Of a stretch of DNA of 64,000 nt, positions 5,521 to 28,237 are shown in pieces. The DNA lies in NCBI GenBank assembly GCA_015956445.1, contig WIUZ02000009.1, forward strand, positions 496,001 to 560,000, given 5' to 3'. Source of the DNA: Thelephora terrestris. Its lineage: Eukaryota; Basidiomycota; Agaricomycetes; Thelephorales; Thelephoraceae. The notes under the pieces are model-generated. The model did no database searches. It saw only the letters and a program-made list of their open reading frames with translations, and had not been told where the DNA came from. Every line of letters starts with the position of its first letter. The stretch's first letter is position 1. The position numbers and the translations under genes are program-made.

Positions 5521-6585
5521 CTGACCTGGCCTAGTTCAGCCTTATCTTATCTTATCTTATCTTATCTATCTTATTCTGTCTTACCTACCCTAGACCCAAC
5601 CTAACCTGAAATAGTCAACTTAACCTGGTCCACCACAGATCACCCAACCTAACCTAAAGTGGTCTACCTGACCTAGACTGATGCAACTTGAGTTTATCTC
5701 TTCTAATCAGCTGTTATCCTATCTGGCCTTAATCTAGATACCGTAGCTAACCAACATCTAACCCAACCTCACCTGGCTCACCAGCAAGTAACTGGGCTAC
5801 AGGAACACACCGTGAGCTGCACCATCCCATATCCTATATCCAACTGTCACTCAAACACAAGAACTGTGGTGGACCTACAAGTTAGTGGACCCATAAGCCC
5901 ACAGACCCACAAGTATAGGCTGTTCACTCAGTGGAAACATCTGTTATCCATCCTCACTCATGTACCACCCTCATCCTGTGTTTTGTGCCAGACTGCAACT
6001 TCACCACAGCTCATGTTCAGCCACCTAGCTAAACCCATGTACAATCAGGTCTACAAATCCATGGATCCATAACAAGTAGTCTATCACCCTGACTTGCAGG
6101 TTTAGCTAGGTGGCTGAACATGAGCTGTGGTGAAGTTGCAGTCTGGCACAAAACACAGGATGAGGGTGGTACATGAGTGAGGATGGATAACAGATGTTTC
6201 CACTGAGTGAACAGCCTATACTTGTGGGTCTGTGGGCTTATGGGTCCACTAACTTGTAGGTCCACCACAGTTCTTGTGTTTGAGTGACAGTTGGATATAG
6301 GATATGGGATGGTGCAGCTCATGGTGTGTTCCTGTAGCCCAGTTACTTGCTGGTGAGCCAGGTGAGGTTGGGTTAGATGTTGGTTAGCTACGGTATCTAG
6401 ATTAAGGCCAGATAGGATAACAGCTGATTAGAAGAGATAAACTCAAGTTGCATCAGTCTAGGTCAGGTAGACCACTTTGGGTTAGGTTGGGTGATCTGTG
6501 GTGGACCAGGTTAAGTTGACTATTTCAGGTTAGGTTGGGTCTAGGGTAGGTAAGACAGAATAAGATAGATAAGATAAGATAAGAT

Positions 6586-9500
6586 TGTCAGGGCCACTCT
6601 ACCCCAACAACTACCAGTGCACTGAGCCGACTCCGCAGAGTACTCACTAGTCCGACTAGCTTGTGAGAGAACGATCACGTCTCTATTCTTCCGGTAGGTT
6701 GTCCGAGGTCACTGCAAGTCAGGTCGAAATCCTAAAGAGAAACCCAACCTAAACCGCACTTCGTTCGGTTTAACAAGCAAGGGTTGATCCCTACAGCAGG
6801 ATTGATGACTCCACCAGTTGATCGACTGGACGCTCGAGGTATTCTAATATGACTGCGGGGAGTCTATAGTTACGAGGCGCAGTTGACGCGCAGAGCGGGA
6901 GGGAGAGCAGATGGGGGATGTCTTGGATCAAACAAGAAACTCTGACTTGGCCTTAACTGCAACTGGGCTGAGAAGGGCAGAGGATTTCCTGAGGTAACAA
7001 AACTAAGGTACTACGATACAGCCACAGTTGCTACTTATACTAAAGGAGTGGCCATGACGTCAATACCCTAATATACCCTTATCAAGTCCAGAACAAAGGG
7101 AGATAAGGAGTGTGAGAACGCTAAGTAAGGGAAGCGAACAAAGGTGACGCGTGGGAGAATAAAGGACAAAGGGCCTTAATAGCGTGTGAAGTATTGCATA
7201 AAAGATAAGGAATGCCCGCATGAAACATAGGGGTGAAGATAACACTAGTCCTAAAGAAAAAAAGGGGCATGGGTCATGAAAGTTCGTACCTGAATCTAGA
7301 CCACACCCAAGGGTCAGGTGAGCACCGTCTCTGAGCTTCTGTGATTGGCTAGAGATCGAAGGAACTCTACACATCCCTTGTTGTCGGTAGGTGGTATGAT
7401 ACCAACGGACAGGCAGTAACCTGGGAGTTGCAACCGTAATCGCTTGATCAGACCCAGTCTTGATTAGGCATAGCACCTGGGAATATCGTTCTTCCTAAGT
7501 GGCACCAGGGATTATATTCTTCGGCCGCCTTTCTCGGCTCGGGCCTACTCTGCTTCCAAAGCACAACTAGATCAGATAGGGTTACTATCCGATTAGAAGC
7601 ACAGTGTCCAAATGTTGATACCCCATGCCCACGTGTGTGTTCCAGGGTCCAGGGTTGTTCGTAACCGTAAAGTCATGAGGGGTCGTAAAAGGGGTTCGTG
7701 ATGTCATAAAGGGGTCATCAGGGTCTTGAGACCTATTTGTAGTGCGCGCGTGTTCTAGGCATTCCGGAACGAAATTCTTCCAAGGCCGTCCCGCGGGCCG
7801 AGGTGTCAGCTTGATGTAGTAAGCCAACGATGATGGTACAGGGGCGGAAGTTGATGTGACCTGGACCAATGAGGTTCGTCGAGGTAGGTCACGTGAAGGA
7901 TCACCGATCTAGGCTATAAGAAGGACGTCTTCTTGGAGCCATCCTTGATCAGCAACACCAGCAACTCCCCATCATCTTACCAAAACATGTCCTTCCCCAA
8001 CAACCATACCTACAAAGTCGCCAATGGTATCTCCACCATCTCTCGCATCGACCGTCGTGCCGCCGCTCGCAAGACCTATGCCTGTGCGGCTGGGACTCCC
8101 TATACCACGGATGACCAGGTATGGGGGAGACCTAGAGCTTCGTGTGTTTGCACTAACGCCTTCCTCTAGGTAGAGGAACGTTCTTTTGGCGTTTGATGTC
8201 AAACTAACGGCTTCTAGATCTTGGAGGTCGTTACGGGAGTGGACGTCGAACGTCTCAGGGAGACGATGCCTCATTTGAAGGGGTTAACCTGGGATGATGA
8301 GCTTTGGGTCCGTACGATCATCGCCGAAAAGGTGGCCTTCCAGATGAGGGGTAGGTTCGGAGAGTTGGAGCATCCGATCAAGAAGGAGCTCTGGTACACC
8401 CTGCAAAGGGGAATCTACAATCAGGACCTACTGGAACACGGAGCGACCGTTCCTCGGGCCGTCCGCCATGCTACCGCTTCCACTAGCCTTTTGTGGTCGC
8501 TCGTTCGGGAGGGAGAAAGCCGGGTAGGTTTTCCGTCTGAATATTCGAGTATGACTCTCGACTAATCAGACTGCCTAGGTTGAACGCTTGGAGCGCGAAG
8601 TGAAAGAGGCGAAGGCAGACGTCCTTCGTCTGTCAGCGGAGGGCCTTCAGATGAAAGAGACCTTGGCAGCCTTCCAACAAGGAACGAACGAGGCGTTGGA
8701 GGCAATGGTCGCCAACCATCAGGAGTTGATCGCCAGGTTGAAGGTTAGGGACAACAACATCAAGGGGGCGTTGGCCAGAAGGGATGAAAAGGTTCTTTCA
8801 GCCTTTGCAGGTTTATGCAATGACTGAGGAATTTCTTCTAGACAGAAGAACTCGAAAACGTGGTGGCTGTGTTGACAGCGCAGGTCGAGTCCTTGCAGGA
8901 CAAGACCTGTAACTGCAAGGAGGGTCCCAAATTGGTTGGTGAGGGGACCGCCGACATTCCGTTCGAGCTGGAGTACGCCGACGAGGTGGTACTCCCATCG
9001 CCTAACCCGTCGTCCTATGCGACGCCTCCAATTGAGAACTCGGTTCCCGTTCCGACTCCGGCTCCGGCTTCCACTCTGGCCGCTTCCGACAAGGAGAACT
9101 GTGGGCGCTGCGTCTTGCAGCCAATCCGTCAGTTGGTGAAGATCGAGGATGAGGTCATGGAGGTTGACTGAGCCGAAGATGCTCCGAGGGTCGCCGAGGT
9201 ACGTCCGGTGACTAAGGGGCAACGATGCAAACACTCTCGACGCCGTCCTGCTCATCGCATGGCTCCATCAGCTAATCCCTATCCTCGTCCAGTTGAGTCG
9301 GATGGTGACCAGTCTGGTCGAGGTGGGGGACGAGAGTTCCGCTATCGAGTCCACCGTCCCTACCAACAGGTCGAGTCGGAGATCCAGCTTCGCCACCAGC
9401 GTCGACTCACAATACAGGATTCCGCCCAGGGGTCCGATGAGGGAGACGGAGGGTCACTTGCCGACTACGTCGATAGTGCTGTCGAGCAGTCACCCGGTGA

Positions 9501-9908
9501 TGGCGATGTGGGACCAAGTGTTCCAGAGTTCAGTGACATCTGGGAGGCTGATCGGTCCGCTCGAAGGTATCTCTTCCTATCGGCTTGAACTAGTCGTTCA
9601 GCTGAGCGCCGAAGATGGTGACGCCATGTTCGGGGAGGTCCTAGCGAGGAGGGGCCAGCACTATGATCTCCGGGATGGACAGTTGATGACCTTCAGGCCT
9701 GCCGTAGATAGAGTCGACTTTTGATGGGATTGGGATAGCACTTGTATAGCTCGTTGTGGATTCGCTGGGAATAGTACGCGCGTGTGTGTGTTTCGAATGA
9801 TTGGTGTGAAGGATAAGGAGTGTGAAGCATTCAAAACATAAGAAGTAATAAGAAGAGTTTGAAGAAAGAGCGTGTTATAAAAAGTTTAAAAATACCATGT
9901 TCCTGACA
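6586..9908 (+). mobile_element. X1-family element, complete copy (3323 bp, TSD AAGAT)
   Basis: It begins TGTCAGGGCCACTC and ends CATGTTCCTGACA, and is flanked by AAGAT on both sides (6581-6585 and 9909-9913). Excising it rebuilds the surrounding palindrome exactly, so the boundaries are secure. Inside is one spliced plus-strand gene (7987-9724). On the minus strand there is a TATA-like AGTATAAGTAGC near 7033-7044, about 450 bp from the left end. There are no direct terminal repeats and no transposase, integrase or reverse transcriptase. A second copy of the family, heavily interrupted, spans 12,238-28,232. TG...CA ends, a 5-bp TSD and the TATA position suit a very large solo LTR read on the minus strand; a non-autonomous DNA transposon is the alternative. 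Confidence 0.9.
7987..9724 (+). pseudogene. X1 coiled-coil cargo protein, five exons, premature stop
   Basis: Exons: 7987-8118, 8218-8523, 8579-8791, 8842-9198 and 9293-9724, with introns of 50-99 bp showing GT...AG borders and CTAAC/CTAAT branch sites. The product would be about 479 residues. In order: a short N-terminal exon (MSFPNNHTYKV), a conserved helical block (LTWDDELWVRTII, KKELWYTLQRGIY), a long charged heptad-like helix (ERLEREVKEAKADVL), a Cys pair (CNC, later CGRC), a Pro/Ser-rich acidic linker and a final charged exon. No known family was recognised. A TGA at 9169-9171 interrupts exon 4; the sister copy at 12,422-19,111 has CGA (Arg) there, so this copy is a recent nonsense allele. 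A TATA-like CTATAAG sits about 75 bp upstream of the ATG. Confidence 0.75.
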
Positions 9909-9929
9909 AAGATAAGATAAGGCTGAACT

Positions 9930-10250
9930 AGGCCAGGTCAGAGTTAGGTTTAGGGCAGGTTAGGTTTAGGTTTAGGTTTAGGTTTGGTGCTAGGATAGGT
10001 TTGGGGCAGGCTGGGTTTAGGGCAGGTTAAGTTTGGGGTTAGGTTAGGTTAGGTTAGGTTAGGTTTAGGTTAGGTTAGGTTAGGGTTAGGTTAGGTTAGG
10101 GTTAGGTTAGGTTAGGTTAGGTTAGGTTAGGTTAGGTTTAGGTTAGGTGTAGGTTTAGGTCTAGGTTAGGGTTAGAGTTAGGGTTAGGCTAGGTTAGGGT
10201 TAGAGTTAAGGTTAGGCTAGGTTAGGTTAAGTTAGGTCCAGGACTAGGTT
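9930..10250. repeat. Interstitial telomere-like array (TTAGG)n, right arm
   Basis: This is the inverted partner of the array at 5150-5520: TTAGG units with interspersed TTAGGG and TTTAGG, in the same order relative to the arm end. The two arrays differ slightly in repeat number, which accounts for most of the length difference between the arms. Confidence 0.85.
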
Positions 10251-11283
10251 TAGGGCTAGTTTATGACTACAAACTGGTCTGTACTTCATGATATAATGAA
10301 TATTACAGATATATTTGTATTTTCCTATTTTCATTTATTTCTTGGGGATTTTTATGAATTTTTTGGGCAAAAAATATATTAATATTAAAATTATGGGCTA
10401 TTCAATGGACCAAAAAAATTGGAATAATTTTTATAAAATATTTATCTATACTCTGGAATTTTTTCCTGATTTTTCCAGCCAGAAAAACAATTTTTTGAAT
10501 ATTTCTGGGAATAATTTACCATTTTGGGCACTTTCTAGATGTGTGGGAATTTTTTCAGTATTTTTAGGATTTTTTTGGCATTTTTCCGAATTTTCTAGCA
10601 TATAATTTCCTTTTTAGGAAATTTCCTTTTTTGGTAATTTTTGCCAGAATCATTTTTGAGTTGCTTATGTAAGCCATCAAAATTTCCTTTTTTGGTAATC
10701 CATCAAATATTTCCTAAAAAGGAATTTCCTTTTTGGGAAAGACCCCTCCAAAAGCATTTTTGAGACGCTTATGTAAGCCATCAAAACTTTCCTTTTTTGG
10801 TCGGTCACATGACCTGATTACATAAGCAACACCCACTTTTTTCAGTCACATGACCTGCTTATGTCAGCCATCAAAATTTCTCAAAAAGGAAATTCAATAT
10901 CAAAATCATTTTTGAGTTGCTTATGTAAGCCATCAAAAATTTCCTTTTTGGGAAATTTTGATCGGAAATTCCCACAGTCCATTTTTCATTTTCTGCCCTC
11001 CCTGACACCCGTGGGAATTTTTCCAGAATTTTCTGGAATTTCCCTGAATTTTTTAATTTTTATTATATAAGCAATCCACTCTCCTGGGCCACCCACACTG
11101 TCGGCACCTGCCTAATTGGGAGCACCAGTGCCCAGTAAGCTGGGTCCCAGTCCCCCCCATAATTTCCATTAAAACTTTATGAGTAAAATATCCCCCCTCA
11201 GGCCATTCAAAAACCCATGAGAAAAATCATTCAAATTTGCGACAAAAACTCCTAAAACATTAATGTTTTTAATAAGGACTACT

Positions 11284-11373
11284 GATCATTCTCTCACAAG
11301 CTAGTTGGACTAGTGAGTACTCTGCGGAGTTGGCTCAGTGCACTGGTAGTTGTTGGGGTAGAGTGGCCCTGAC
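11284..11373. mobile_element. Terminal remnant of an X1-family element
   Basis: These 90 bp match the TGTCAGGGCCACTC end of the X1 elements, inverted (the same as 28,146-28,232). The rest of that copy is gone: the palindromic element abuts it on the left. On the right the sequence continues inside a W-type LTR fragment, so this X1 copy probably inserted into that LTR. Confidence 0.8.
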
Positions 11374-11608
11374 ACATTGATTCCTCTCTGTTATCTTTAG
11401 TTATCTTTAGTTCCCTCTTGTTATCTACGTCTCCCTACACGTCCCGACGTTCCCGAAGTTCCCGAAGTTTCCCTTCATTTCCCTACAGTTCCCTACGTGT
11501 CCCTACAGAGCTAGGAGGCATTGTACGACCAAGGACCACCTTCATCGACGTTGACAGGGCACCCCAATCTTCTCCCCATCGGACCTTAGCCCACATAGCC
11601 CCTGTTCA
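11374..11608 (+). mobile_element. W-type LTR fragment (3' part)
   Basis: It matches, inverted, the part of the W element around 16,832-17,065 and ends in the same CCCCTGTTCA terminus at 11,608. The 5' part is missing. The shared stretch includes repeated TCCC(T/G)ACG-type runs and the block that reads CATCGACGTTGACAGGGC. Confidence 0.7.
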
Positions 11609-12237
11609 ATGTCACTATCAAACTACCTAGTTTCTGTACATGTAACGATGGCTGTCTATCCAAGATATACTATCAAAACTCAACTTACAGTACGGAGGCT
11701 GTTATTTGGCTGTGTTTTGCAATGGCCCCATCAAAGCGGGAGCCACCTAGAATAGGAAAACTTGGGTTAAAATTGTCACGGTTCTCATGTATAATTGGGA
11801 TTTCTCCACTGGCATGCCTTGTAATACTTGTATCCATGAGAAACTGTGGTCAGGGGCCCTTATAACCCTGAACTGCACTACATCTATTTTGTCTGCAACT
11901 TTCCCCTCTTCCATCGCATTCGCGATATCTTGGCATCTTGCTCTTTATAGGCTATCGTGTTATCCTCTTCTCTGATCACACAATAAGGTACACTTCCACC
12001 ACTCCATCTTTGTTGGGTTTTGCTAGGATGCTCATGACCTCGCAACAGCACAACAAACCTGCGCAATTGACACCTCCCTAGTGTCCTCCACAGTGCATTC
12101 GTTCCTCACTGATATATTATTTCTGTGTTTGCTCATGCATCTGCCAGATGTGCACTCACCAGGTAGCTACCAAACCTTCAAGTTTTCGAGGCCAGTCAGC
12201 CGCAGTCCAGAGCAGGTCTAGACAACCGATGTTGGTG
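11609..12237. other. Unassigned spacer between mobile elements
   Basis: About 630 bp with no open frame supported by splice signals and no similarity to other parts of the window. It is the left flank of the large X1 copy. The last five bases (TGGTG, 12,233-12,237) are the left target duplication of that element. Confidence 0.4.
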
Positions 12238-12446
12238 TGTCAGGAACATGGTATTTTTAAACTTTTTATAACACGCTCTTTCTTCGAACTCTTCTTACCA
12301 TTTCCTATGTTTGAATGTTTTACACTCCTTATCCTTCACCCCAATCATTCAAAACACACACACGCGCGTACTATTACCAGCGAATCCACAACGAGCTATA
12401 TACGGTGCTATCATCGTTCCATCAGAAATCGACTCTATCTACGGCA

Positions 12447-15373
12447 TGTCAGCGTGCTGAATTTTATTCCCTTTTTCAACCATTTTTACACCCAACTTTC
12501 GCCCACTTTCCTTACCTATACCCCTTTCTTATCTTATCAGTTTCCGTATCACGACTCACACGTCATCAAGGAACACGGACAAGGGCACTGATGATATTAC
12601 ACACGGCGCGCAGCGAAGACACAAGACTACCAAACCGACGGAGTTGAATCCGCCCGGACTCTATAACCGAGGACTAAGGTGTACAAACCCTAGCCGTCAA
12701 GACCTGGTTTGCCAGTACTCCTCAGCACTGGCAACCTCCTCCTCCGTCCCCTCCGAGGCATTCCCGTCGACTTCCTCGTCGACCATCTCGATGACCCGAG
12801 CTTCCTCCAGACGATGAGCGACGGCCAACTGAACCTCGGCGTGAAGGCGGTTCCTCGCTGAACTGACCATAGTCTGATCCAGAGTCCTCTGGACTGACCA
12901 ACCCTCCACTCTCTCGGTCAGTTGAGCCACCAAGCGAACGGCCTCCGCTGCACGCTGGACCGACAAGAGCGTAAGGTCGGTTAAGCCGTTCACGTCGACG
13001 GACTCCACCGGAATCAGTTCGCCGCGATCCAAGCGACACTGTAGCATCGTCGCATCGGAATAGGACGGTGGATTCAATGTCTCCACCCTGGCGGACGACG
13101 TTGGGATTACTGGGACGCATACGGTGCGCTGGACGAAGTGTCCCGCGATAAGGAACCCAACGACGAGCACGGATAGAACGTTGACCATGCACCGGCGAGA
13201 TCGAAGGAGGCGGAATCGGAACGGCCACCTCGTTCTCCCCCACATACTCCAACTCGGGAGAACTGCTAACCGGATTCACGGCCGTCTCCTCGGACGTCTC
13301 GCGGACGACCTCCTCCCCACCATCGGTGTGCGCAGGTGTACGGTACGAACCGTCGGAAGCTAAAAAGGATGTCAGTGGACAAAGCCAAATATGTCAACCG
13401 ACATCCCACCTATGGGAGAAGCCATCCGATCCGGTATCGACTCGTCCTCGGACTCGTCGCGAACCGCAGCCACCGAACGAGTGCGGCAGTGACATAACCG
13501 CTCGCTCATCGATTCGACCCGAGCGCCCAGCAATGGTAAAGCGTCGTCCAACGTGTCAACCTAGAAGCGGTATGAGTTCCCTCGGATCAAGACCAGGGGA
13601 AGGCACACCGACCTTGGTGTCCAACTCATTTAAAGCCCTTCGATGACGATTGAGCCGTCGGTCGACCTCGATCAGGTCCCGCTGAATGGTGTCGTCCCGT
13701 TCCTTCAAGGACTCGACCAACCGGTTGTGTTCTTCGCGCATCACTAGCATCTCGCTCTCAAACGTAACGCGGAGCGTATCGTTCATCAGGAGCAGCGTCT
13801 TCTTCGTGTCCAACGCTTCCGAGTACATCCTACGGGCATCATCCTTCGCTTCCTTCACTTCACGCTTCAGCCGCTCATTCTACCAGCCTGTCAGTGTTAT
13901 CCCACAAGCGGGATGCACAGACCGACTCACCGCTTTCTGTTCTGTCCTCAAAAGGAACCAAAGGCGGTGACCAATGGCTGCTGTATAGTGTTGCGAACGA
14001 GTCGCCCCCGGCCACCTTCCTTCGCCATTTCCCAGATCGTAGATTCCCATCTTCAGAAGACCCCACAGCGATGACGCCACCGGAGTCTCCCATGGCATAC
14101 GCAACTCGGTGTCGAACGTGACTCCGCGCATAGACTCCTGTAACTTGTGGTCAATCAAGTTATGATACCACAACTCGTCATCAATGGTCAAATAGTGGGG
14201 AGGCCTGGCGATTGTTGCCTCTAGTTGTCGAGCATCCACCTTGTCGGCAACCGCGAAGATCTACGATGCGATGTCAGTTGTTGCCAGCAAACGGCGACAC
14301 GTGACGTCGCACCTCGCGATAACTAGGGTACGCCACGTTGGCGTTCGGAAGGAAGTAACTCTTGTTCTGCACGGAGCACGGATCCGCAGACTCGATGGTA
14401 GCGGTGCTGTTCTCAGCACGGAAGACACGGTCGGAGATCATGGGCATGTTGAGTAGTTGGTTGGTGGGATTGTTGGTTTGGAAGAAGGGAGTTTGATGAA
14501 TCCAACGGTCGGTTCGCACTACGCTTTATCCGACCATCGATAGCGCTCGCGTCCTATTCGCCATTGGATCGGACCATCGTTTCACCGGTCCAGACTCCTC
14601 ATACATTCGCCCTCAACATTCAAGCCCCACTCGGTCCTTTGTTATCCCGATCGGACGAGCTGACGCGTCGTCCTCTCATTGGTTCGTCCTTGCATGTGAT
14701 ATTATCCTTTGTCATTCCTTTCCCACACAACGTCATGACCCCTTTCTTATTCTCTCACGAACCCTGACCCATTAGTCATTCCTTTATCATTTCTATTCTA
14801 CATCCCGGGCCGCTTACTGTTCCAGCTTACTCTCGGCCCTTCTTTGCTCCGAGTTATTATTAGATAGGGTTATCTATGTCCCGGCCACTCTCCTATATAG
14901 GTACCAGTAGAGTAGCTGAGGATTCCCCATCTTTGATATCTCAGGAAGTCCTCTTCTCCTTGCAGCATCGGTGTATTTGCTGTAGGCCACTGAAGAGCTT
15001 ATCGAGTAACTCCTTGAACCGTTCGCTCTCCTCTCTCACTCAGTCTTGATCCTTAACCGGTGTTTGAAGCGAGCTCGGACACGACATCGAGTTCCGCACT
15101 GCTCTTTGGATCAAGTCATCAGTTTGAGGCGCCATCCTCAGGCTCTTGTATCTGCCCTCAGAAGACGATAGGGATTTACCTGATAGAGGCTCGGCACTCC
15201 TGCTGTGGATTCGGACAACCTACCGGAGAACGCTCGTCCATCGCGTTTTGGACCACGTAGACTTTGGGTGGATATAGGGAAGTCGTTCCCCCTTTGCCCC
15301 ATTGTTTCTTGTTGGTTGGAGTTGCGACTCACCAACAGCACTGGTACCTGAAGGGCGAAGAGTGGCCCTGACA
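12447..15373 (-). mobile_element. X2-family element, complete copy (2927 bp, TSD CGGCA)
   Basis: The ends are TGTCAGCGTGCTG on the left and AAGAGTGGCCCTGACA on the right, flanked by CGGCA at 12,442-12,446 and 15,374-15,378. It sits inside the last exon of the older X1 gene. Contents: one minus-strand spliced gene (12,697-14,447) and, on the opposite strand, a TATA box (TCCTATATAG) at about 14,894, some 480 bp before the right end. It shares the overall plan and stretches of sequence near the TATA side with X1 (a TCAGGAA(A/G)TCCTC block and the GGTAGGTTGTCCGA motif), but its gene is strongly diverged. No mobility enzyme is encoded. Confidence 0.9.
12697..14447 (-). CDS. X2 coiled-coil cargo protein (multi-exon)
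   Basis: Exons read on the minus strand: 14,447-14,313, 14,260-13,931, 13,879-13,613, 13,560-13,410 and 13,359 onward, with GT...AG introns of 50-52 bp. The last splice near 13,090-13,200 is uncertain; the frame that runs longest and is kept in the other X2 copy ends at 12,697. Parts in order: a short exon (MPMISDRVFRAENS), a helical block (LTIDDELWYHNLIDHK, SSLWGLLKMGIYD), a charged coiled coil (NERLKREVKEAKDDARRMY and on), a CHC Cys pair and an acidic Ser-rich C-terminal part. DDELW, the LW...GIYD pattern and the C-x-C pair are shared with X1, so the proteins are homologous. No database family was recognised. No disabling change was seen in this copy. Confidence 0.65.
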
Positions 15374-16831
15374 CGGCAGGCCTAAAGGTCATCAACTGTC
15401 CATCCCGGAGATCGTAGTGATGGCCCCTCCTCGCAAGGACCTCCCCGAACATGGCGTCACCGTCTTTGGCACTCAGCTGAACAACCAGTTCAAGCTGATA
15501 GGAAGAGATGCCTTTGAGCGGACCGATCAGCCTCCCAGATGTCACCGAACTCTGGAACACTTGGTCCCACATCTCCATCACCGGGTGGCTGCTCGGCAGC
15601 ACTATCGACGTAGTCGGCAAGCGACCCTCTGTCTCCCTCATCGGACCCCTGGGTGGGATCCTGCCGTGCGAGGCGAAGCTGGTGTCAGAGTTGGATCTCG
15701 GACTCGACCTGTCAGTAAGGACGGTGGACCCGATATCGGAATCCTCGCTCCTCACCTCGACCAGATTGGTCACCATCCGACTCAACTGGTCGAGGGTAAG
15801 GATTAGCCGATGCGGTCATACAATGAGCAGGGCGGCGTCGAGAGCGTTTGCATCGTTGCCCCTTAGTCACCGGACGTACCTCGGCAACCCTCGGAGCATC
15901 TTCAGCTCGGTCAACCTCCATGACCTCATCCTCGATCTTCACCAACTGATGGATTGGCTGCAAAATGCAGCGCCCACAGTTCTCCTTGTCAGAAGCAGCC
16001 AAAGTGGAAGCCGGGGCCGGAGTCAGAACGGGAACCGAGTTCTCGATCGGAGGTGTCGCATAGGACGACGGGTTAGGCGATGGAAGTACCACCTCGTCGG
16101 CGTACTCCAACTCGAACGGAACATCGGCTGTCCCCTGACCAACCAATTTTGGACCCTCCTTACAGTTGCAGGTCTTGTCCTGCAAGGACTCGACCTGCGC
16201 CGTCAACACGGCCACCACGTTCTCAAGTTCTTCTGTCTAGAAGAAGTGTCAGCTTCCCTCATTTCGTCTTCGAGATGAGGAAAGCTATCTTTTCATCTCT
16301 CCTGGCCAACGCCCCCTTGATGTTGTTATCCCTAACCTTCAACCTGGCGATCAACTCGTGATGGTTGGCGACCATTGCCTCCAACGCCTCGTTCGTTCCC
16401 TGCTGGAAAGCGGCTAAGGTCTCCTTCATCTGAAGACCCTCCGCTGATAGACGAAGGACGTCTGCCTTCACCTCCTTCACCTCCCGCTCTAAACGTTCAA
16501 CCTAAGCAGTTTGATTAGTCGAGAGTCATACTCGAATATTCAAACAAGAGAACTTACCCGGCTTTCCCCCTCTCGAACGAGCGACCACAAGAGACTGGTG
16601 GAAGCGGTGGCATGGCGGACTGCTCGAGGAACAGTCGCTCCATGCTCCAACAGGTCCTGATCATAGATTCCCCTCTGCAGGGTGTACCAAAGCTCCTTCT
16701 TGATTGGATGCTCCAGTTCCCCAAACCTACCCCTCATCTGGAAGGCTACCTTCTCAGTGATTATCGTACGAACCCAGAGCTCATCGTCCCAGGTCAACCC
16801 CATCAAATGAGGCATTGTCTCCCTGAGACGT

Positions 16832-18845
16832 TGAACAGGGGCTATGGGAGTAATGGTCCGATGGGGAGAAGATGGGGTGCCCTGTCAACGTCGATGAAGG
16901 TGGTCCTTAGTCGTACGATGCCTCCTAGCTCCGTAGGGACACGTAGGGAACTGTAGGGAAATGTAGTGAAACATCGGGAACGTCGGGAACGTCGGGACGT
17001 GTAGGGAGAAGTAGATATCAAGAGGGAACTAAAGATAACTAAAGATAACAGAAGGGAATCAATGAAACAGACAAAGGAACAATGAGGGAAAACTTCGGGA
17101 CGACGATGAGAACTTCGGGAGGTCGGGATCTTTGGGAGGTCGGGATCTTCGGGATGACGACAGGACACTAGAGATGACGACGAGAACGCAGAGACGCGGG
17201 TATGACGACGAGAACGATAGGGAAGATGCAGGAGACTATAGGGAGACGACGACGACGAGAGGAGAACGATAGGGAGAGGAAAACATGGGAATCAGTCCCC
17301 TGGATTGGTCTCTGTGTTGAGTCTATCGAATACAGAGGCTTATATACTAATCTAGGAGGCTCTGAGAACGTAGGAAGCAAGAGGGAATGAACCAAATGAT
17401 GTCAAAAGACCTAATGACGAGTCTATGACATGGGGAGGGCGAGGGATCGAAGGGAACGACCAAGGAAAGAGATGTGGTTGAGAAATGAACCAAAAGGGAA
17501 TGATCGAGCATAGGGATCGAGAGATCGAGGGGAATGGTGTAGGGAGATATCGCGAAGGTATAGGGAAGTCGGGAGAAGATATAGGGAGGGGTCGCGAATG
17601 GTGTAGTGTTGGGAGGGATATAGGGAGGTCGGGGGGGGGTAGCGAGAGATAGGGAGAATACTAAAACATCGGGAAGGTCGCGAAGCATCAGGACGAGTAG
17701 GTTAGTATAGGGAAGGGAGTAGTGAGGTAAAGGGGGATATACGGGTATGTAGGGAAGTATAGGGATGCATAGGGAGGGGTAGGGAGGTATAGAGAGTATA
17801 GAAACATCGCGAAACATTGCGAAGCATCCCGAGGGAAAGGGACGTAGGGAATGTCGCCGATGAGTACTCACTGGGGGCAAGGGGTCAAATACCCAGTGGG
17901 TACATGCTGAACACATTGTGATCACAGTCAACAAGTGATCACAATGTACCCAGTGGGGGAAATATGAATACATTCAAAATGTGCCTGGCCATGTGAGTCC
18001 AATGTGCCCTGTAGGCACATTTTGATTGTGATCACAATGTACCCATCAGTGTGATCTCAATGTGCCCACTGGGGACATTTTGATTGCGATCACAATGTAC
18101 ACATCAATGTGAACTCAATGTGCCTGCTGTGCACATTTTAATTTCTTTCACAATGTTCCCATCAATGTGTTCACAATGTACCCAGCTCATTACATAATAG
18201 TTTCTTTCACAATGTTGTCCACAATGTGTCCAGCATGTGGCTGAGCCACTCATTCAAACTTCTTTCACAAAGTATCCAGTGATGTGCCTAGAATGTGGAC
18301 AGCCATACACATAGTGATTTCTTTGAAAGTTCATGGTGAAATCAAACAATATTGAGATTACATTGTGGTTACTTCAAAAAGAACCCCCTGGGGACATTAT
18401 GTACACATCACTGGGTAATCTTTGAAAGAATTTTGAATGAGTGGCTCAGCCACATGCTGGACACATTGTGGACAACATTGTGAAAGAAACTATTACGTAA
18501 TGAGCTGGGTACATTGTGAACACATTGATGGGAACATTGTGAAAGAAATGAAAATGTGCACAGCAGGCACATTGAGTTCACATTGATGTGTACATTGTGA
18601 TCGCAATCAAAATGTCCCCAGTGGGCACATTGAGATCACACTGATGGGTACATTGTGATCACAATCAAAATGTGCCTACAGGGCACATTGGACTCACATG
18701 GCCAGGCACATTTTGAATGTATTCATATTTCCCCCACTGGGCACATTGTGATCACTTGTTGACTGTGATCACAATGTGTTCAGCATGTACCCACTGGGTA
18801 TTTGACCCCTTGCCCCCAGTGACTCCAGAGAATGGAGGCATGTCA
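16832..18845 (-). mobile_element. W-type solo LTR, about 1058 bp without its insert (TSD ACGT)
   Basis: On the minus strand it begins TGACATGCC and ends CCCCTGTTCA. The four bases ACGT are duplicated at 16,828-16,831 and 18,846-18,849, and joining the flanks restores exon 2 of the X1 gene. A TATA box (TTAGTATATAAGCC, minus strand) at about 17,341 is followed by GTATTCGATAGAC, the same arrangement as in the U-type LTR (26,376-27,425). Much of it is purine-rich degenerate tandem sequence (GGGA, TCGGGA runs). A 953-bp foldback element (17,869-18,821, TSD ACT) sits inside. There is no coding capacity. Confidence 0.8.
17869..18821. repeat. Z foldback element, copy 1 (953 bp, TSD ACT)
   Basis: The ends read CACTGGGGGCAAGGGGTCAA inward from both sides, and the two arms (about 420-450 bp each) are inverted copies around a roughly 120-bp spacer. 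It is flanked by ACT at 17,866-17,868 and 18,822-18,824. The arms contain many short units built on TGATCACAATGT and GCACATT, as in subterminal repeats of CACTA-type DNA transposons. The 3-bp duplication and CACTx end fit the CMC (CACTA/Plavaka) group. It has no coding capacity, so it must move in trans. Confidence 0.85.
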
Positions 18846-21566
18846 ACGTTCGGCGTCCACTTCAGTGACGACCTCCAAGATCTAGAAGCCGTTAGCTTGA
18901 CATCAACGCCTAAAGAACGGACCTCTACCTAGAGGAAGGCGTTAGTGCGAACACACGAAGCTCTAGGTCTCCCCCATACCTGATCATCAGTGGTATAGGG
19001 AGTCCCTGCCGCACAGGCATAGGACTTGCGAGCGGCGGCACAACGGTCAATACGGGAGATGGTAGAGATGCCGTTGGCGACTTTGTAGGTATGGTTGTTG
19101 GGGAAGGACATGTTTGGTAAGGTGATGGGGAAGTTGCTGGTGTTGCTGATCAAGGATGGCTCCAAGAGGACGTCCTTCTTATAGCCTAGATCGGTGATCC
19201 TTCACGTGACCTACCTCGACGAACCTCATTGGTCCGGGTCACATCAACTTCCGCCCCTGTACCATCATTGTTGGCTTACTACATCAAGCTGACACCTCGG
19301 CCCGCGGGACGGCCTTGGAAGAACTTTGTTCCGGAATGCCTAGAATGTGCGCGCACTAAAAATAGGTCTCAAGACCCTGATGACCCCTTTATGACATCAC
19401 GAACCCCTTTTACGACCCCTCATGACTTTACAATTACGATCAACCCTGGACCCTGATCACACACGTGGACAGTCACATCACAGTCTCCTAACCAGAGGAA
19501 GGAATCACCGTTATTTGGAAGGAGTGCCTTAGACTCCTTTTGTTTAGCTCAGCGAATGTGGAGTAGCCGTTAGCGTGAAACACTGGCGAATCTGTAATCC
19601 CTCATGTCCCATGAGTCTAGGCCTGCGCTCCTCATGTTTGGATGCACGTTGAGGTTGCCACTAGTCCGTGATGCTGTTACCGCCTACAGACAACAAGGGA
19701 TGCTGCATGGTCTCTATCTTTGGCCTCTCCAAAGGAAGCATCCAAGAAGATTCTCACCTGACCCTTGGGTGTGATCCCCAGGTGCGAACTTTCATAACCC
19801 CATGCCCCCATTTCTTTTTGGACTAGTGTTATCTTTACCCCTATGTTTCATGCGGACATTTGTTATCTTTTATGCAATCCTTCACACGCTAGTAAGGCCC
19901 TTTGTCCTTTATTCTCCCACGCGTCATATTTGTTCGCTTCCCTTACTTAGCGTTCTCACACTCCTTATCTCCCTTTGTTCGGACTTGATAAGGGTATATT
20001 AGGGTATTGACGTCATGGCCACTCCTTTAGTATAAGTAACAACTGTGGCTGTATCGTAGTACCTTAGTTTTGTTACCTCAGGAAATCCTCTGCCCTTCTC
20101 AGCCCAGTTGCAGTTAAGGACAAGTCAGAGTTTCTTGTTTGATCCAAGACATCCCCCATCTGCTCTCCCTCCCGCTCTGCGCGTCAACTGCACCTCGTAA
20201 CTATAGAACCCCAGTGTTCATATTAGAACACCTCGAGCATCCAGTCAATCAACTGGTGGAGTCATCAATCCTGTTGTAGGGATAAACCCTTGCGTGTTAA
20301 ACCGAACGAAGTACGGTTTAGGTTGGGTTTCTCTTTAGGATTTCGACCTGACTTGTAGTGACCTCGGACAACCTACCGGAAGAATAGAGACGTGAACGTT
20401 CTTGTCAGGGCCACTCTTCGCCCTTCAGGTACCAGTGCTGTTGGTGAGTCGCAACTCCAACCAACAAGAAACAATGGGGCAAAGGGGGAACAACTTCCCT
20501 ATATCCACCCAAAGTCTACGTGGTCCAAAACGCGATGGATGAGCGTTCTCCGGTAGGTTGTCCGAATTCACAGCAGGAGTGCCGAGCCTCTATCAGATCA
20601 ATCCCTATCGTCTTCTGAGGGCAGAGATAAGAGCCCAAGGATGGCGCCTCAAACTGGTGCTTGATTAAGAGAGCGGCGAGGAACTCCTTTTCGTAAGCGC
20701 GTTCGCCGATTCTTAACGCAAGGCAGAGAGAGAGAGGAGAGCGAACGTGTTCAGAGAGTTACTCGATAAGCTCTTCAGTGGCCTACAGCAAATACACCGA
20801 TGCTGCAAGGAGAAGAGGACTTCCCGAGATATCAAAGATGGGGAGCCCTTAGCTACTCTACTGGTACCTATATAGGAGAGCGGCCGGGACAGAGATAGCC
20901 CTATCTAATAATAACTCAGAGCAAAGAAGGGCCGAGAGTAAGCTAGAACAGCAAGCGGCCCGAAACAGAGAATAGAAATGATAAAAGAATGACTAATGGG
21001 TCAGGGTTCGTGAGAGAATAAGAAAGGGGTCATGACGTCGTGTGGGAAAGGAATGACAAAGAACAATACCACATGTGAAGACTGACCAATAAGAGGACGA
21101 CGCGTCAGCTCGTCCGATCGGGACAACAAACGACCGAGTGGGGCTTGAATGGTTGAAGCGAATGTATGGGGAGTCTGGGCGGGTGAAACGATGGACCGAT
21201 CCAATAGCGAATAGGGCGCGAGCGCTCTCGATGATCGGATAAAGCGTAGCGCGAACCGACCGTTGGATAAAGTGTAGCGCGAACCGACCGTTGGATCCAT
21301 CAAACTCCCTTCTTCTCAAACCAACAATCCTACCAACTACTCATCCACTATGCCCATGATCTCCGACCGTGTCTTCCGTGCTGAGAACAGCACCGCTACC
21401 ATCGAGTCCGCCGACCCGCGTTCCGTGCAGAACAAGAGTTACTTCCTACCGAACGCCAATGTGGTGTACCCCAGTTATCGCGAGGTGCGACGTCACATGT
21501 CGCCATTTGCTGGCAACAACTGACATCGCATTTGTAGATCTTCGCGGTCGCCGACAAGGTGGATGC

Positions 21567-23991
21567 TGTGATGATTTCGCCGTTTACCCCCTTTCATTTC
21601 CTTTATTTAACGCCTCATCACCACTAAGTCAGTTGGTGCCCTGCCCTAAACACGGCAGTAAACTGTTTATTATGCAGTATGCCCTATGCTTAACGACTCA
21701 AAGTCCAATACGTGGAACGTGCTACTAGTCAAGATACCCCAGAAGACCCGAGGTATAATACGTGAACATGTACCGGCGGACCTTCATAGAAGATCCCCCC
21801 TACCTGGCCCTCCGTTGCCCCTGGACGACTAGTAGATATTCAGGCTACCGACAACAAGGGATGTATTAATAAGCGACGCGCGCTGACCTCTCGCAGAAGT
21901 CAACCGGCTTATTAATCTGACCCTTGGATTGGACTTATGAAAACCATTATGCTTTACGACTCATGGATCACGCGCAATAGACAAAATAGAAGGTAAATTC
22001 CTTGGAAGCCAAATAGTACAAAAGAGTTATTTAATCAATATCTCTGCGAATCCTCTGTACTACTTCCAAGGCCGACCTCACCAACTCCTCGTTCAACCAG
22101 TTCTGCTCCCGGATCTCGTTCGGGTCCACATCCGACAGGTCGTCATAATCTGGAAGCTCTATGTCAGAGTTCGGTTCGCTATCAGGAACGAACTCAGCGT
22201 ACGGATCGTACTCTAGAGCAGGCCATTGACGGCGACTACCCCAAGGAGTAGATACGAACTCAGGACGAGGGGTGTCCCTACGAACAACTCCCAAGTTCTG
22301 ATAGAACTCGTCGCTCCCAATCTCAATGACCTCATCATCAACGGGAACCAACCTGTTCTCGTGACGAACCAACAAACGAGCGGGCGGCGACTCAGCCCGA
22401 TTGGGAATTATCGGCGACCCGGCCCGATGCAGAACCTCTTCCCCTTCTTCCTCTTCGACTCGGACCTCCGGCTCGTTACACCTCCTCTGGAGATCCCGAA
22501 CTTCTCCGGTTAACTCGGAGACACGACGAGTAAGGCGAACCTAAAAGAATAGGGTTAGAAGATAACAAAAACCTTCAACCCCTACCCCTTACCTTATCGT
22601 CCTCCAATTCTCCGGTTTTGGTAACCAGAGCCCGGACCAAGTCTTTGAGAGTAGTCACCTCTCCCTAAAAAGAAAGTTTGAGTTAGAAAGGTCAATTACT
22701 CTTGACCCAGACTTTCTTACCTTCAACAAATCAATATCGGCGCCCTGCCGAACAACACTATCTTCCTGTCCGTGAATAACCCCCTGCATATCCTCTTTCC
22801 AATTCTCCAAGGCTTCTATCTCCTCACGACGACCATCAACACGTTCATTGACGTGAGCCACTTCATCCATTAACATGGACCCAACGTTCCCCGTATGGAG
22901 AACGCTGGCCTCCAACACGGAGTTGAAGGTCTCGTTGGACTCCGTCATGAACTCAACACCCCTATTGAGGAGTTCACTCGCATATGGGTTAGTCTCGATG
23001 CGCGCCAACTTGCGCCGAGACACCCTTCGAGCGGCCTGGAGAAAGTCCCTGAAACCTAAAAGGAGTTAGCTTGGTTTCCTAAACCGGAATACGCAAGCAG
23101 GGCCCCCCACCTAAATCAGAGAACCCCTCATTAGGGTCGGCGGTGGCGGTCCGGTCCATAACCGCTCCCAAAGTAGGATAAGGGCAGGACGGATCACGGC
23201 GGGCATGAGAAAAGCAATCGATGTTGTAATTGTTCTCCTGAACAGGAGAGTAAGAAGAAGAGCGACGGGTGGGATTGCGAGTAGAAGCACGAGGCATGTT
23301 GGCTATGTGTAACAAAGGTGGGTTTGTTGAGAGACCCAGTCATCCAACCCCCTTTGGTTATATACCAAATGCCACGCCCCTTCCACGACTCAGGAGTTGA
23401 GTCATCATTTCTATTGTTTACTGCGTATGACCCACATGACATCATATGCCCCTATCTTTAGTCATATGCTCCCCTTTTGCTATTGGCTGTTAGTCAGCCA
23501 TACCCACATTCCTTCCGAACATTCTCAGGATACGTCATGCTTTGTAATTGCTCTGTAATGCTCTCAAATTTCTATTGGCCGCCACACTTTCATTTATCAG
23601 CTGATAATTTGTAGCATTAGTCACCACGTAACGCACAGACCATGCAGTGCTGCGCACGGACCATGTTTGTCTGTGTTTGTATCATTAGGGTAGTTACATG
23701 TCACTGTCACGTCACAAATCTAAGTAGTATATATACTCAGAGTAGTTTAGCCTGTACTCCTTAGATTTGTTATCATCAGACTCTCTGTGACCTCTACTGC
23801 TGTGTGCTTAGAGCAAGAGTGTTTGAAGACCCTTGTCTCCTTCTTTCTCCTCTTATCCAATCTAGTCTGTGAAGAGACTTCCGATATCCCTGGGTTTGCA
23901 ACAGGGTTATAACTGTGTGTTTGACCCCTGAGTGTGATAGGTTTGGATAGCAAGAGTGCTATTGAACTGTAGAGGTTGCGTCGGCCTGACA
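21567..23991 (-). mobile_element. Y-family element, complete copy (2425 bp, TSD GATGC)
   Basis: It starts TGTGATGATTTCG and ends GTCGGCCTGACA, flanked by GATGC (21,562-21,566 and 23,992-23,996). Joining the flanks restores exon 2 of the X2 gene. It encodes one minus-strand four-exon gene (22,031-23,297). A strong TATA box on the plus strand (AGTAGTATATATACTC) lies at 23,724-23,737, about 260 bp before the right end. The plan therefore equals that of X1 and X2, but the sequence is largely different, so it is a third family of the same type. Confidence 0.85.
22031..23297 (-). CDS. Y coiled-coil cargo protein, 367 residues, four exons
   Basis: Exons on the minus strand: 23,297-23,111, 23,055-22,721, 22,664-22,593 and 22,540-22,031; they join in frame (1104 bp including the stop). 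The introns are typical: GTGGG/GTAAG donors, CTAAC branch points and TTTTAG acceptors. The protein starts MPRASTRNPTRRSSSY, is basic and Ser-rich at first, continues with an Arg-rich helix (FRDFLQAARRVSRRK), a long charged coiled coil (about residues 70-180), an acidic Glu run, and ends in an acidic tail with a final helix (LNEELVRSALEVVQRIRR). An alternative in-frame ATG lies 18 bp upstream (23,315). No known family was recognised. The frame and all splice sites are intact, so it could be expressed. Confidence 0.7.
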
Positions 23992-24207
23992 GATGCTCGA
24001 CAACTGGAGGCGACGATCGCCAGGCCTCCCCACTACTTGACCATAGATGACGAGTTGTGGTACCACAACTTGATTGACCACAAGTTACAGGAGTCTATGC
24101 GCGGGGTCACGTTTGACACCGAGTTGCGTATGCCATGGGAGACTCCGGTGGCGTCATCGTTGTGGGGTCTTCTGAAGATGGGAATCTATGACCTGGGAAA
24201 CGGCGAA

Positions 24208-25160
24208 CACTGGGGACAAGGGGTCAAATACCCAGTGGGTACATGCTGAACACATTGTGATCACAGTCAACAAGTAATCACAATGTGCCCAGTGGGGGAA
24301 ATTTGAATACATTCAAAATGTGCCCGGCCATGTGAGTCCAATGTGCCAAGTAGGCACATTTTGATTGTGATCACAATGTACCCATCAATGTGATCTCAAT
24401 GTGCCCACTGGGGACATTTTGGTTGCGATCACAATGTACACATCAATGTGAACTCAATGTGCCTGCTGTGCATATTTTGATTGTGATCACAATGTTCCCA
24501 TCAATGTGTTCTCAATGTACCCAGCTCATTACATAATAGTTTCTTTCACAATGTTGTCCACAATGTGTCCAGCATGTGGCTGAGCCACTCATTCAAACTT
24601 CTTTCACAAAGTATCCAGTGATGTGTCCATAATGTCCCCAGGGGGTTCTTTTTGAAGTAATCACAATGTAATCTCAATATTGTTCAATTTCACCATGAAC
24701 TTTCAAAGAAATCACTATGTGTATGGCTGTACACATTCTAGACACATCACTGGATACTTTGTGAAAGAAGTTTGAATGAGTGGCTCAGCCACATGCTGGA
24801 CACATTGTGGACAACATTGTGAAAGAAACTATTATGTAATGAGCTGGGTACATTGAGAACACATTGATGGGAAAATTGTAAAAGAAATTAAAATGTGCAC
24901 AGCAGGCACATTGAGATCACATTGATGTGTACATTGTGATCGCAATCAAAATGTCCCCAGTGGGTACATTGAGATCAAATTGATGGGTACATTGCGATTG
25001 CAATCAAAATGTGCCCACTGGGCACATTGGATTCACATGGCCAGGTACATTTTGAATGTATTCAAATTTCCCCCACTGGGCACATTGTGATCACTTTTTG
25101 ACTGTGATCACAATGTATTCAGCATGTACCCACCGGGTATTTGACCCCTTGCCCCCAGTG
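24208..25160. repeat. Z foldback element, copy 2 (953 bp, TSD GAA)
   Basis: Same length and ends (CACTGGGG...CCCCAGTG) as the copy at 17,869, with GAA duplicated at 24,205-24,207 and 25,161-25,163. The interrupted X2 gene reads through when one GAA and the element are removed, which is an exact empty-site check against the intact X2 copy. The central spacer is inverted relative to copy 1, as expected for insertion in the opposite orientation. Confidence 0.9.
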
Positions 25161-25572
25161 GAAGGAAGGTGGCCAGGAGCGACTCACTCGCAACATTACA
25201 CAGCAGCCGTTGGTCACCGCCTTTGGTTCCTTTTGAGGACAGAACAGAAAGCGGTGAGTCGGTCTGTGCATCCCGCTTGTGGGATAACACTGACAGGCTT
25301 GTAGAATGAGCGGCTGAAGCGTGAAGTGAAGGAAGCGAAGGATGATGCCCGTAGGATGTACTCGGAAGCGTTGGACACGAAGAAGACGCTGCTCCTGATG
25401 AACGATACGCTTCGCGTGACGTTCGAGAGCGAGATGCTGGTGATGCGCGAAGAACACAATCGGTTGGTCGAGTCCTTGAAGGAACAGGACGACACCATCC
25501 AACGGGACCTTATTGAGGTTGACTGACGGCTCAACCGTCACAGAAGGGCTCTGAATGAGCTCGACACCAAGG

Positions 25573-25926
25573 TGTTGAGCAGGTAGAGTATAATACTATA
25601 CTACTACATGGATACTCTAATCCTTACCTGAAGGGGAGAGGTTTATAGTTGCTAGTGGGGGAGAGAGAGAGAGAAGCGATTAATTGATCTATCTACACAT
25701 GAGGGGTATATATATCTATCTACTCTATTGGTGTCACAACTGTATAGTGTGACTGATGCAGGGTCCGTGCGGTGGCTTAAGGCACATGCGCGTCATACCA
25801 ATCGATCGGATCACTGATGTGATACCGCCCCTTCGGGTCGCTTATTCAGCGCTCTCCGGCATCGGCTCTCGCACAAAGCGGTGAAGCCGGTTGACCCATT
25901 GCCGGGCACAGACCTCCAGTTCAACA
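25573..25926 (-). mobile_element. Copia solo LTR (354 bp, TSD CAAGG)
   Basis: It starts TGTTGAGCAGG and ends AGTTCAACA, flanked by CAAGG at 25,568-25,572 and 25,927-25,931. Inverted, it matches the 5' LTR at 2752-3105 along its full length. It lies in the third intron of the broken X2 gene, just after the donor. Confidence 0.9.
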
Positions 25927-26375
25927 CAAGGTTGGTGCAACTTCTCCTGGTCTTTGTCCAAGAGAGCTCACGCCACTTCCTAGGTTGACACGTTGGATGA
26001 CGCCTTGCCGTTGCTGGGTGCTCGGGTCGAATCGATGAGCAAGCGGTTGTGCCATTGCCGCACTCGTTCGGTGGCTGCGGTTCGCGACGAGTCCGAGGAC
26101 GAGTTGATTCCGGATCGGATGGCTTCCCCAATAGGTGGGATGTTGGTTGACATATTTGGCTTGTCCACTGACATCCCTTTTTAGCCTCCGACGGTTCGTA
26201 CCGTACACCGGCGCATACTGATGGCGGGGAAGAGGTCGTCCGCGAGACGTCTGAGGAGACGGCCGTGAATCCGGCTAGCAGTTCTCCCGAGTTGGAGTAC
26301 GCGGGGGAGAACGAGGTGGCTGTTCCGGTTCTGCCTCTGTCGATCTCGCCGGTGCGTGGGCAACATTCTATCCGT

Positions 26376-27425
26376 TGAACTAGCCACAAAGCCTTCGGAG
26401 TCCGAGAGGGCAGAGATGGCAGTTAGAAGGTCGGGTCCTCGGTTCAGAGGCGCGAGCCTCTAGGGAATCTGCGGGAAGCGAATGAAAGGTGAGAGAGAAA
26501 GTCGGGAAGAGAACGGGAGAACGAGGCAGAGGACGACGGGAAAGCCAGAGAACGAAACTACCGATAACCAACAAAGGGAAACGTCGGGATACGTCGGGAC
26601 AACAGAGTCAGAAATCGGGACACCAGCGGGACACAAGAGACCAGAGGGACAACGAGAACGAGGGCGAGACGACGAGGGAACCGAAGGGAGGACCGTAGCA
26701 ACGCTGCTAGGCCTCAGAAGAGAGAGAGAGAGAGAGAGAGAGAGGGAACGCTGCTGATTGATTCTCTGGTCTATCGAATACAGGGGCCTTTATATACAAT
26801 GCTAAGGGCTCTGAGAACGAAGGGAACCAAAGGGAACGAACCAAAATGATGTCAAGAGACCTTATGACGAGTCTATGACATAGGGAAGGCGGGGGATCGA
26901 AGGGAATGATGAAGGAAAGGAATGTGGTTGAGAAACGAACCAGAGGGAGGTCTGGAGTCGCAAGCAGGGCGATCGATCGAGACGTGATCGGGACGCAGAG
27001 AATGGAGATAGGGAGATGAGAACTAAAGATATAAAATGTACTGAAAAGTCGGGACACAATCGGGACTGATCGGGACACAATCGGGACTGATCGGGACACA
27101 ATCGGGAGGGAATGTGAAGGAAACAAAGTCCTAGGGATACTAAATGCTAAGAAACGCAGGTCGCAGGTCGCGGGTCGAGGGGGCGCAGGTCGCAGGTCGC
27201 AGGTCTAAGTCGCAGGTCGCAGGTCGAAAGGGGAAAACGTCGGGACGTCGTGATGTCGCGAAGGGGGATAAGGAGAGAGGGAAGTGTAGCGAAGCAAAGG
27301 GACAGGCGAGTCCTTGTCGGGACAGTCGAGAATGCTGAGGGAAGTCATCTAGACCTCGCGCAGCGGTTGTCGATAGTTGAGAGAAGGTCGCGATTCCGGA
27401 TAGTGTCCGAAATACAGTCACGACA
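26376..27425 (-). mobile_element. U-type solo LTR (1050 bp, TSD CCGT)
   Basis: On the minus strand it begins TGTCGTGACTG and ends GGCTAGTTCA. CCGT is duplicated at 26,372-26,375 and 27,426-27,429. On the minus strand a TATA box (GTATATAAAGG) near 26,791 is followed by CTGTATTCGATAGACC, about 415 bp from the LTR end. It contains an (AG)n run at about 26,711-26,751 and a purine-rich minisatellite (CGGGACACAAT...). A fragment of the same LTR is at 2468-2751. The 4-bp duplication and promoter block link it to the W LTR. Confidence 0.8.
26711..26751. repeat. (AG)n microsatellite
   Basis: An uninterrupted run of AG dinucleotides inside the U-type LTR, downstream of its TATA box when read on the minus strand. 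Confidence 0.9.
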
Positions 27426-28237
27426 CCGTGCTCGTCGTTGGGTTCCTTATCGTGGGGCACTTCGTCCAGCGCACCGCATGCGTCCCAGTAATCCCAACGC
27501 TGTCCGCCAGGGTGGAGACATTGAGTCCACCGTCCTATTCCGATGCGACGATGCTACAGTGTCGCGTGGATCGCGGCAAGTTGATTCCGGTGGAGTCCGT
27601 CGACGTGAACGGCTTAACTGACCTTACGCTCTTGTCGGTCCAGCGTGCAGCGGAGGCCGTTCGCCTGGTGGCTCAACTGACCGAGAGAGTGGAGGGTTGG
27701 TCAGTCCAGAGGACTCTGGATCAGACTATGGTCGATTCAGCGAGGAACCGCCTGCGCGCCGAGGTTCAGCTGGCCGTAGCTCATCGTCTGGAGGAAGCTC
27801 GGGTCGTCGAGATGGTCGACGAGGAAGTCGTCGAGAGTGTCTCGGAGGGGACGGAGGAGGAGGTTGCCAGTGCTGAGGAGTACTGGCAGACCAGGTCTTG
27901 ACTACTAGGGTTTGTATGCCTTAGTCCTCGTCCATAGAGTCCGGGCGGACTCAACTTCGTCGGCTGTTCATCGTGTGCGCGTCCGTGTGTAATATCATCT
28001 GTGCCTTTGTCTGTGTTCTTTGATGACGTGTGAGTTCGTGATAAGGGGGACAGATAAGATAAGAAAGGGGTATGGTTAAGGAAAGTAGGCGAAAGTTGGG
28101 TGTGAAAAATGGTTCAAAAAGGGAATAAAATTCAGCACGCTGACAGTTCTCTCACAAGCTAGTTGGACTAGTGAGTACTCTGCGGAGTCGGCTCAGTGCA
28201 CTGGTAGTTGTTGGGGTAGAGTGGCCCTGACATGGTG

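Follow-up and report, generated by a model that had tools for sequence, protein, structure and literature searches.

In a 64,000-nucleotide stretch of the genome of the fungus Thelephora terrestris (Basidiomycota, Agaricomycetes), two families of elements, X1 and X2, are very probably the long terminal repeats (LTRs) of chromodomain Ty3/Gypsy retrotransposons, to judge from sequence, and carry within the LTR a selected gene that runs antisense to gag-pol. The stretch analysed, termed here the window, is C60:496001-560000 of an assembly of 40.6 Mb in 60 contigs. The antisense gene has five to six exons in X1 and X2, lies wholly in the U3 region and encodes a coiled-coil protein of about 480-490 amino acids (aa). 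A third element in the window, Y, is probably an LTR built in the same way, of which no full-length element survives in this assembly. Whereas the usual view of an LTR is of a regulatory end that codes for nothing, and of a solo LTR as a scar devoid of genes, here the LTR carries a gene.

X1 and X2 as retrotransposon LTRs

The first-pass annotation of the window had proposed that X1 and X2 are solo LTRs, and this has been borne out by direct copies that flank pol next to a primer site elsewhere in the genome, the check which that annotation had itself suggested, with gag-pol found between such copies for X2 on contig C5 and for X1 on contig C23. The X2 LTRs on C5 measure 2932 bp each, are identical at 2931/2932 positions and enclose gag-pol, and the element as a whole is bounded by the target-site duplication (TSD) AACTG. 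On C12 an X2 direct pair surrounds an integrase-coding frame (element TSD GTTTT), and on C23 X1 forms an LTR-int-LTR-int-LTR array around gag-pol (TSD CATCA) whose LTRs show 0-2 differences over 3293 positions. Paired LTRs and element TSDs were examined at these three of the 11 pol loci. The search for X2 copies, in which 40 of 294 candidates were scored, listed 44 matches, and among these were two direct pairs whose members stand 5.8-5.9 kb apart and enclose an integrase match.

The internal region of X2 on C5 encodes gag with a zinc knuckle, protease, reverse transcriptase (RT), RNase H, an integrase zinc finger, rve, SH3_Tf2-1 and a chromodomain, and X1 on C23 has the same domain set, with rve above the cut-off. 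This is the chromovirus order of Ty3/Gypsy elements (protease, RT, RNase H, integrase and a C-terminal chromodomain), read in one copy per family, as was gag. Matches above the Pfam cut-offs were RVT_1, RT_RNaseH, Integrase_H2C2, SH3_Tf2-1, Chromo, RVP_2 and zf-CCHC; Retrotrans_gag fell below its cut-off in both families, in X2 only just, and so did rve in the X2 pol, which scored 25.5 bits where 32.6 are required. The X2 pol frame has 1263 codons on C5 and 1301 in two other copies, and in X1 gag and pol occupy two overlapping frames. Between the families, identity is 61% in pol and 29% in gag. Internal regions with pol number eight for X1 and three for X2. A genome search with RT (99 matches; 100 of 108 candidates scored) gave 11 stop-free matches at 71-100% identity, whose frames are 1113-1367 codons long; these are the same 11 loci that carry the primer site described below; the next RT match stands at 33% identity.

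In both families this primer site starts 2 nt after the CCTGACA end of the LTR. The X2 internal region begins TT-ATATCAAAGAT, the last 11 letters of which are complementary to the LTR sequence ATCTTTGATAT, 35 nt past the TATA box, and in X1 the complementarity to post-TATA sequence extends over 12 nt. The boundaries of R and U3 can thus be fixed, because the primer site is complementary to LTR sequence at this distance from the TATA box. A primer-site pattern predicted from the sequence after the TATA box of X1, and loose enough to accept a Y-like variant, occurs at eight places in the genome, all of the X1 form, and the X2 pattern at three, with none in the control for either; each of these 11 sites has an rve match on its own strand, 3.8-4.8 kb further downstream. 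All X1 (9/9) and X2 (30/30) copies contain the R-start motif, with a TATA-like box 35 nt upstream in 9/9 and, by pattern, 26/30 of them. TATA boxes had been annotated in every element, and those of X1a, X2a and Y were confirmed (Table 1). By these features X1 and X2 fit the Tf1/sushi-type self-primed group, with a predicted RNA start.

Most X1 and X2 LTRs are solo or broken, since the 3' end common to both families, GAGTGGCCCTGACA, has 581 exact matches in the genome (a count of 3' ends that includes fragments; reversed-pattern control 0) against 11 pol copies, and since 24/30 X2 and 6/8 X1 copies examined genome-wide, X2a and X1a among them, have 5-bp TSDs of their own. Three of the six X2 copies that do not are LTRs of full-length elements.

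The antisense gene in U3

In LTR-sense coordinates the gene spans 188-1922 of a U3 of 1-2903 in X1 and 254-2001 of 1-2482 in X2, and so lies within U3 instead of between pol and the 3' LTR as in the plant-type layout; in Y it spans 465-1731 of 1-2195, where R is predicted. The X2a gene is open through six exons for 493 codons, ending in TGA, and the annotated protein P0072 aligns to it in spliced form without stops or frameshifts, while the Y gene is open through four exons and 367 codons and its product is 97% identical over 96% to the annotated P0080. A gene search returned long spliced frames on the antisense strand, together with shorter sense-strand ones for X2 and Y, and the antisense models were settled because annotated T. 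terrestris proteins align to them. TATA-like sequences lie 67-83 nt before each antisense ATG in X1, X2 and Y; the Y one was found by script, the X1 one and the X2 one, which is weak, by eye. The claim that each element encodes one protein holds for the families, but not for the window copies X1a, which has a stop, and X1b and X2b, which are broken. Matching hypothetical proteins in the T. terrestris annotation amount to 257 for X1 (71 clusters), 62 for X2 (four clusters) and 170 for Y (71 clusters), as sums over clusters with fragments included. Several hundred such entries would be reclassified as LTR-borne genes; they would inflate proteome and orphan-gene counts.

The X1 and X2 antisense proteins share 33% identity over 316 aa (E 2e-30; hhalign 99.2%), and three introns are common to the two genes at the same alignment columns, all in phase 0, whereas the LTR DNA of X1 and X2 gave no match at word size 7 and E 1e-3; the same settings gave one 20-bp match between X1 and Y. 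The antisense gene and gag have diverged at about the same rate, and the gene was most likely present before the X1 and X2 families separated. Parts of the X2 protein have counterparts at 73-77% identity in four metagenome proteins, from which it appears that close relatives probably carry an X2-type gene too; the protein searches returned no other named species (for X1, the 8000 candidates with the most words in common with the query were scored). None of four antisense proteins matched a Pfam family above its curated cut-off, a sequence search of the PDB with the X2 protein gave nothing at E 0.001, and no relation to gag or pol was found.

The ratio of nonsynonymous to synonymous divergence (dN/dS) is 0.05-0.35 over 14 informative comparisons, as expected under purifying selection: 0.06-0.07 in X2 (four comparisons), 0.09-0.35 in X1 (six) and 0.05-0.14 in Y (four). 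These comparisons, which partly overlap and were limited to matches of at least 250 nt, are 14 of 17, with two dropped for having no coding positions and one, Y-L002, for its 7 codons. Between the X2 gene and an 83%-identical copy, changes fall at 41/448, 26/447 and 142/446 sites of codon positions 1, 2 and 3 respectively (p 3e-30), and introns of the same pair differ at 55/239 sites; the codon-position test gave p 3e-10 to 3e-30 in the six comparisons to which it was applied. Some frame-breaking gaps occur in the exons of old copies, as dead copies would show. Since over its whole length the gene opposes U3 in the genomic RNA, its main role might be supposed to be that of a silencing antisense RNA directed at the sense transcript, and the protein would come second. 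Selection at the level of codons, with second positions so much less changed than third ones, argues against this, and we regard it as improbable.

A slightly less probable explanation makes the gene a selfish element of the driver or toxin-antidote type that LTRs have spread, like the wtf genes of fission yeast. In its favour is a multi-intron family dispersed by a self-primed Tf1-like LTR element, by an analogy drawn from the available text of PMC7175516; however, wtf genes adjoin LTRs and do not lie inside them, and the likeness is one of analogy. That the elements are true LTRs in which the antisense frame is a passive or decaying capture, useless to the element, would suit the stop in X1a and the broken genes of X1b and X2b, but is very unlikely given low dN/dS over synonymous divergence (dS) up to 0.76, homologous proteins and intron positions across two families whose LTR DNA does not align, and the metagenome relatives of the X2 protein.

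Proposed mechanism, the Y element and the remaining repeats

A selected protein gene resident in U3 would behave as follows. Sense RNA would start 35 nt past the TATA box, near the right end of the LTR, and read R-U5-gag-pol-U3-R. The U3 measures 2.5-2.9 kb and contains the entire antisense gene, introns included, which is probably transcribed from a promoter of its own. As this gene and the genomic RNA run in opposite directions, splicing should leave its introns in place, so that they pass through reverse transcription and survive retrotransposition, and every new insertion would bring two copies of the gene. Solo LTRs would then spread and store it, since recombination between LTRs drops gag-pol and one LTR and keeps the selected gene. 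We infer all four parts of this scheme: antisense transcription from an own promoter, intron retention in the sense RNA, doubling of the gene and its retention in solo LTRs by recombination. By analogy with HBZ (outlined below, from the available parts of its source), the protein may, tentatively, be an accessory factor with a coiled coil that acts in trans to regulate the family encoding it. A bolder and rather unlikely proposal is that the LTR itself is the selected unit and that every insertion, full-length or solo, adds a dose of a self-regulator which restrains or tunes the few gag-pol copies. If so, the dosage of this self-regulator would scale with past transposition and outlast gag-pol, and Y would be a lineage that keeps only this part.

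Y has TG...CA ends, a TATA box and, after it, an R-like 12-mer that matches the X1 R start at 10/12 letters, and 5-bp TSDs flank 12/12 copies examined besides the one in the window (13/13 with it). Its copy search listed 50 matches, with 40 of 307 candidates scored. Three candidates for a full-length Y element were rejected. A same-strand pair on C56, 5.9 kb apart, proved to be two independent insertions with TSDs CCTTC and GGCGC; on C7 just 2.0 kb separates a pair of copies, one of which has its own TSD; and a copy on C16, 6.6 kb before an rve match, has no second Y LTR in the 9.95 kb examined there. Both C56 insertions sit in another retroelement-like reading frame (L040, C56:1774372-1780276), an uninterrupted frame of 1968 codons with weak matches to DUF4100 and an aspartyl protease.

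Several observations weigh against the reading of X1, X2 and Y as LTRs with a selected antisense gene. The X1a gene has one in-frame stop, in exon 4, and in some X1 copies sense-strand spliced frames outscore the antisense ones. AlphaFold is confident in the coiled coil only (residues ~150-270 of P0072 and ~140-220 of P0107), and both RNA start sites are predicted from sequence. With hundreds of solo copies as potential sources of a trans-acting protein, selection on any single one should relax; the low dN/dS therefore has no explanation unless either the solo copies are silent or the protein works in cis. For Y, no primer site was found in the genome with up to 3 mismatches allowed, no related pol (outside X1 and X2 none exceeds 34% identity save short fragments) and, among the matches listed, no internal region or direct pair with a primer site; nor did its protein show any relation to those of X1 and X2 by BLASTP or to that of X1 by hhalign.

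The alternative put forward in the first-pass annotation was that these are non-autonomous DNA transposons with a captured gene. Ginger DNA transposons have TGTNR...ACA ends, short terminal inverted repeats and 4-5 bp TSDs, and encode a transposase; they have no LTR, primer site or gag-RT. Solo copies, with their TGTCAG...CTGACA ends, 5-bp TSDs and no enzyme, resemble such elements, but for X1 and X2 the alternative is excluded by copies that flank gag-pol, in place of a linked autonomous copy with transposase and the same inverted repeats, and that have a primer site and element-level TSDs; this refutation does not extend to Y, and overall a Ginger-like origin is very unlikely.

All five elements and five TSDs annotated in the window matched exactly on re-check. 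X1b contains both X2 LTRs, X2b contains Y, and further repeats interrupt X1b and X2b (Table 1).

Table 1. Positions of the LTR-like elements, antisense genes and predicted sense promoters in the window
Feature	Position	Strand	Description
X1a	6586..9908	- (retrotransposon sense = minus)	Solo X1 LTR; ends and TSD AAGAT; 92% identical to LTRs around gag-pol on C23
X1a antisense gene	7987..9721	+	Exons 7987-8118, 8218-8523, 8579-8791, 8842-9198, 9293-9721; from spliced alignment to annotated P0008
X1a sense promoter	6994..7040	-	TATA-like box 7040; predicted RNA start (R) 7005
X1 remnant	11283..11374	+	X1 3'-end fragment
X1b	12238..28232	+	X1 LTR interrupted by nested insertions; TSD TGGTG
X2a	12447..15373	+	Complete X2 LTR within X1b; TSD CGGCA
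X2a antisense gene	12700..14447	-	Exons 14313-14447, 13931-14260, 13613-13879, 13410-13560, 13193-13359, 12700-13128
X2a sense promoter	14894..14939	+	TATA 14894; predicted RNA start 14929, ATCTTTGATAT
X2b	20403..28145	-	Second X2 LTR within X1b, interrupted by nested insertions; TSD GTTCT
Y	21567..23991	+	Third LTR-like element, within X2b; TSD GATGC
Y antisense gene	22031..23297	-	Exons 23111-23297, 22721-23055, 22593-22664, 22031-22540; 367 aa
Y sense promoter	23728..23773	+	TATA 23728; predicted RNA start 23762, TAGATTTGTTAT, 10/12 letters as X1

Other repeats also occur in the window. Two 953-bp fold-back elements (17869-18821 and 24208-25160), 95% alike, have arms of ~430 bp and end in CACTG...CAGTG. 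Their apparent TSDs are of 3 bp, ACT (read by eye) and GAA, and we take the two elements to resemble non-autonomous CACTA elements. A large inverted repeat (4118-5466 and 9945-11284; 96-98%) contains degenerate CCTAA/TTAGG telomere-like arrays, and X1a and a palindrome lie between its arms. Near-perfect long palindromes span 1405-2175 (97% over 771 bp) and 5549-6585 (96.6% over 1044 aligned bases). A 2.7-kb inverted duplication at 79% identity, perhaps a divergent gene pair, lies in the genic half of the window (32711-35413 and 36322-39026).

Comparison with known antisense retroelement genes

In Tf1, according to the accessible text of PMC7175516, the primer site is complementary to the 11 nt with which the RNA begins. 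X1 and X2 resemble Tf1/Tf2 and the sushi chromoviruses in their self-priming site, chromodomain and SH3_Tf2-1 domain; they differ in LTR length (2.9-3.3 kb), in the complete antisense gene that U3 contains and, in X1, in the overlapping frames of gag and pol. In plants, Grande, RIRE2 and Retand are described, in the parts available of PMC7264820 and PMC11963269, as carrying an extra open reading frame (ORF) antisense to gag-pol, of unknown function, between pol and the 3' LTR. The extra gene of X1 and X2 is likewise antisense to gag-pol. However, going by the layout in those descriptions, the plant ORF is single in each element and lost in solo LTRs, whereas the X1/X2 gene is doubled and kept.

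The HBZ gene of human T-cell leukaemia virus type 1 (HTLV-1) is antisense, has a promoter in the 3' LTR, occurs in both spliced and unspliced forms and encodes a bZIP protein that damps sense expression, as far as PMC10186651 was available. HBZ and the X1/X2 gene are alike in being antisense genes. To our knowledge, U3 does not contain hbz as a whole. The superantigen gene of mouse mammary tumour virus, a retrovirus, is a protein gene in a long U3, in the sense orientation and with one ORF. In the portion available of a review of giant elements, captured genes are located downstream of pol. The literature searched, in which few subscription journals are represented and some sources were available only in part, reports no whole gene inside a retrotransposon LTR. 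Within that literature, a whole spliced gene within U3 which is retained in solo LTRs appears to be a new variation on antisense retroelement genes. It offers a testable system for the role of antisense retroelement proteins, a question left open in the accessible parts of PMC7264820 and PMC11963269.

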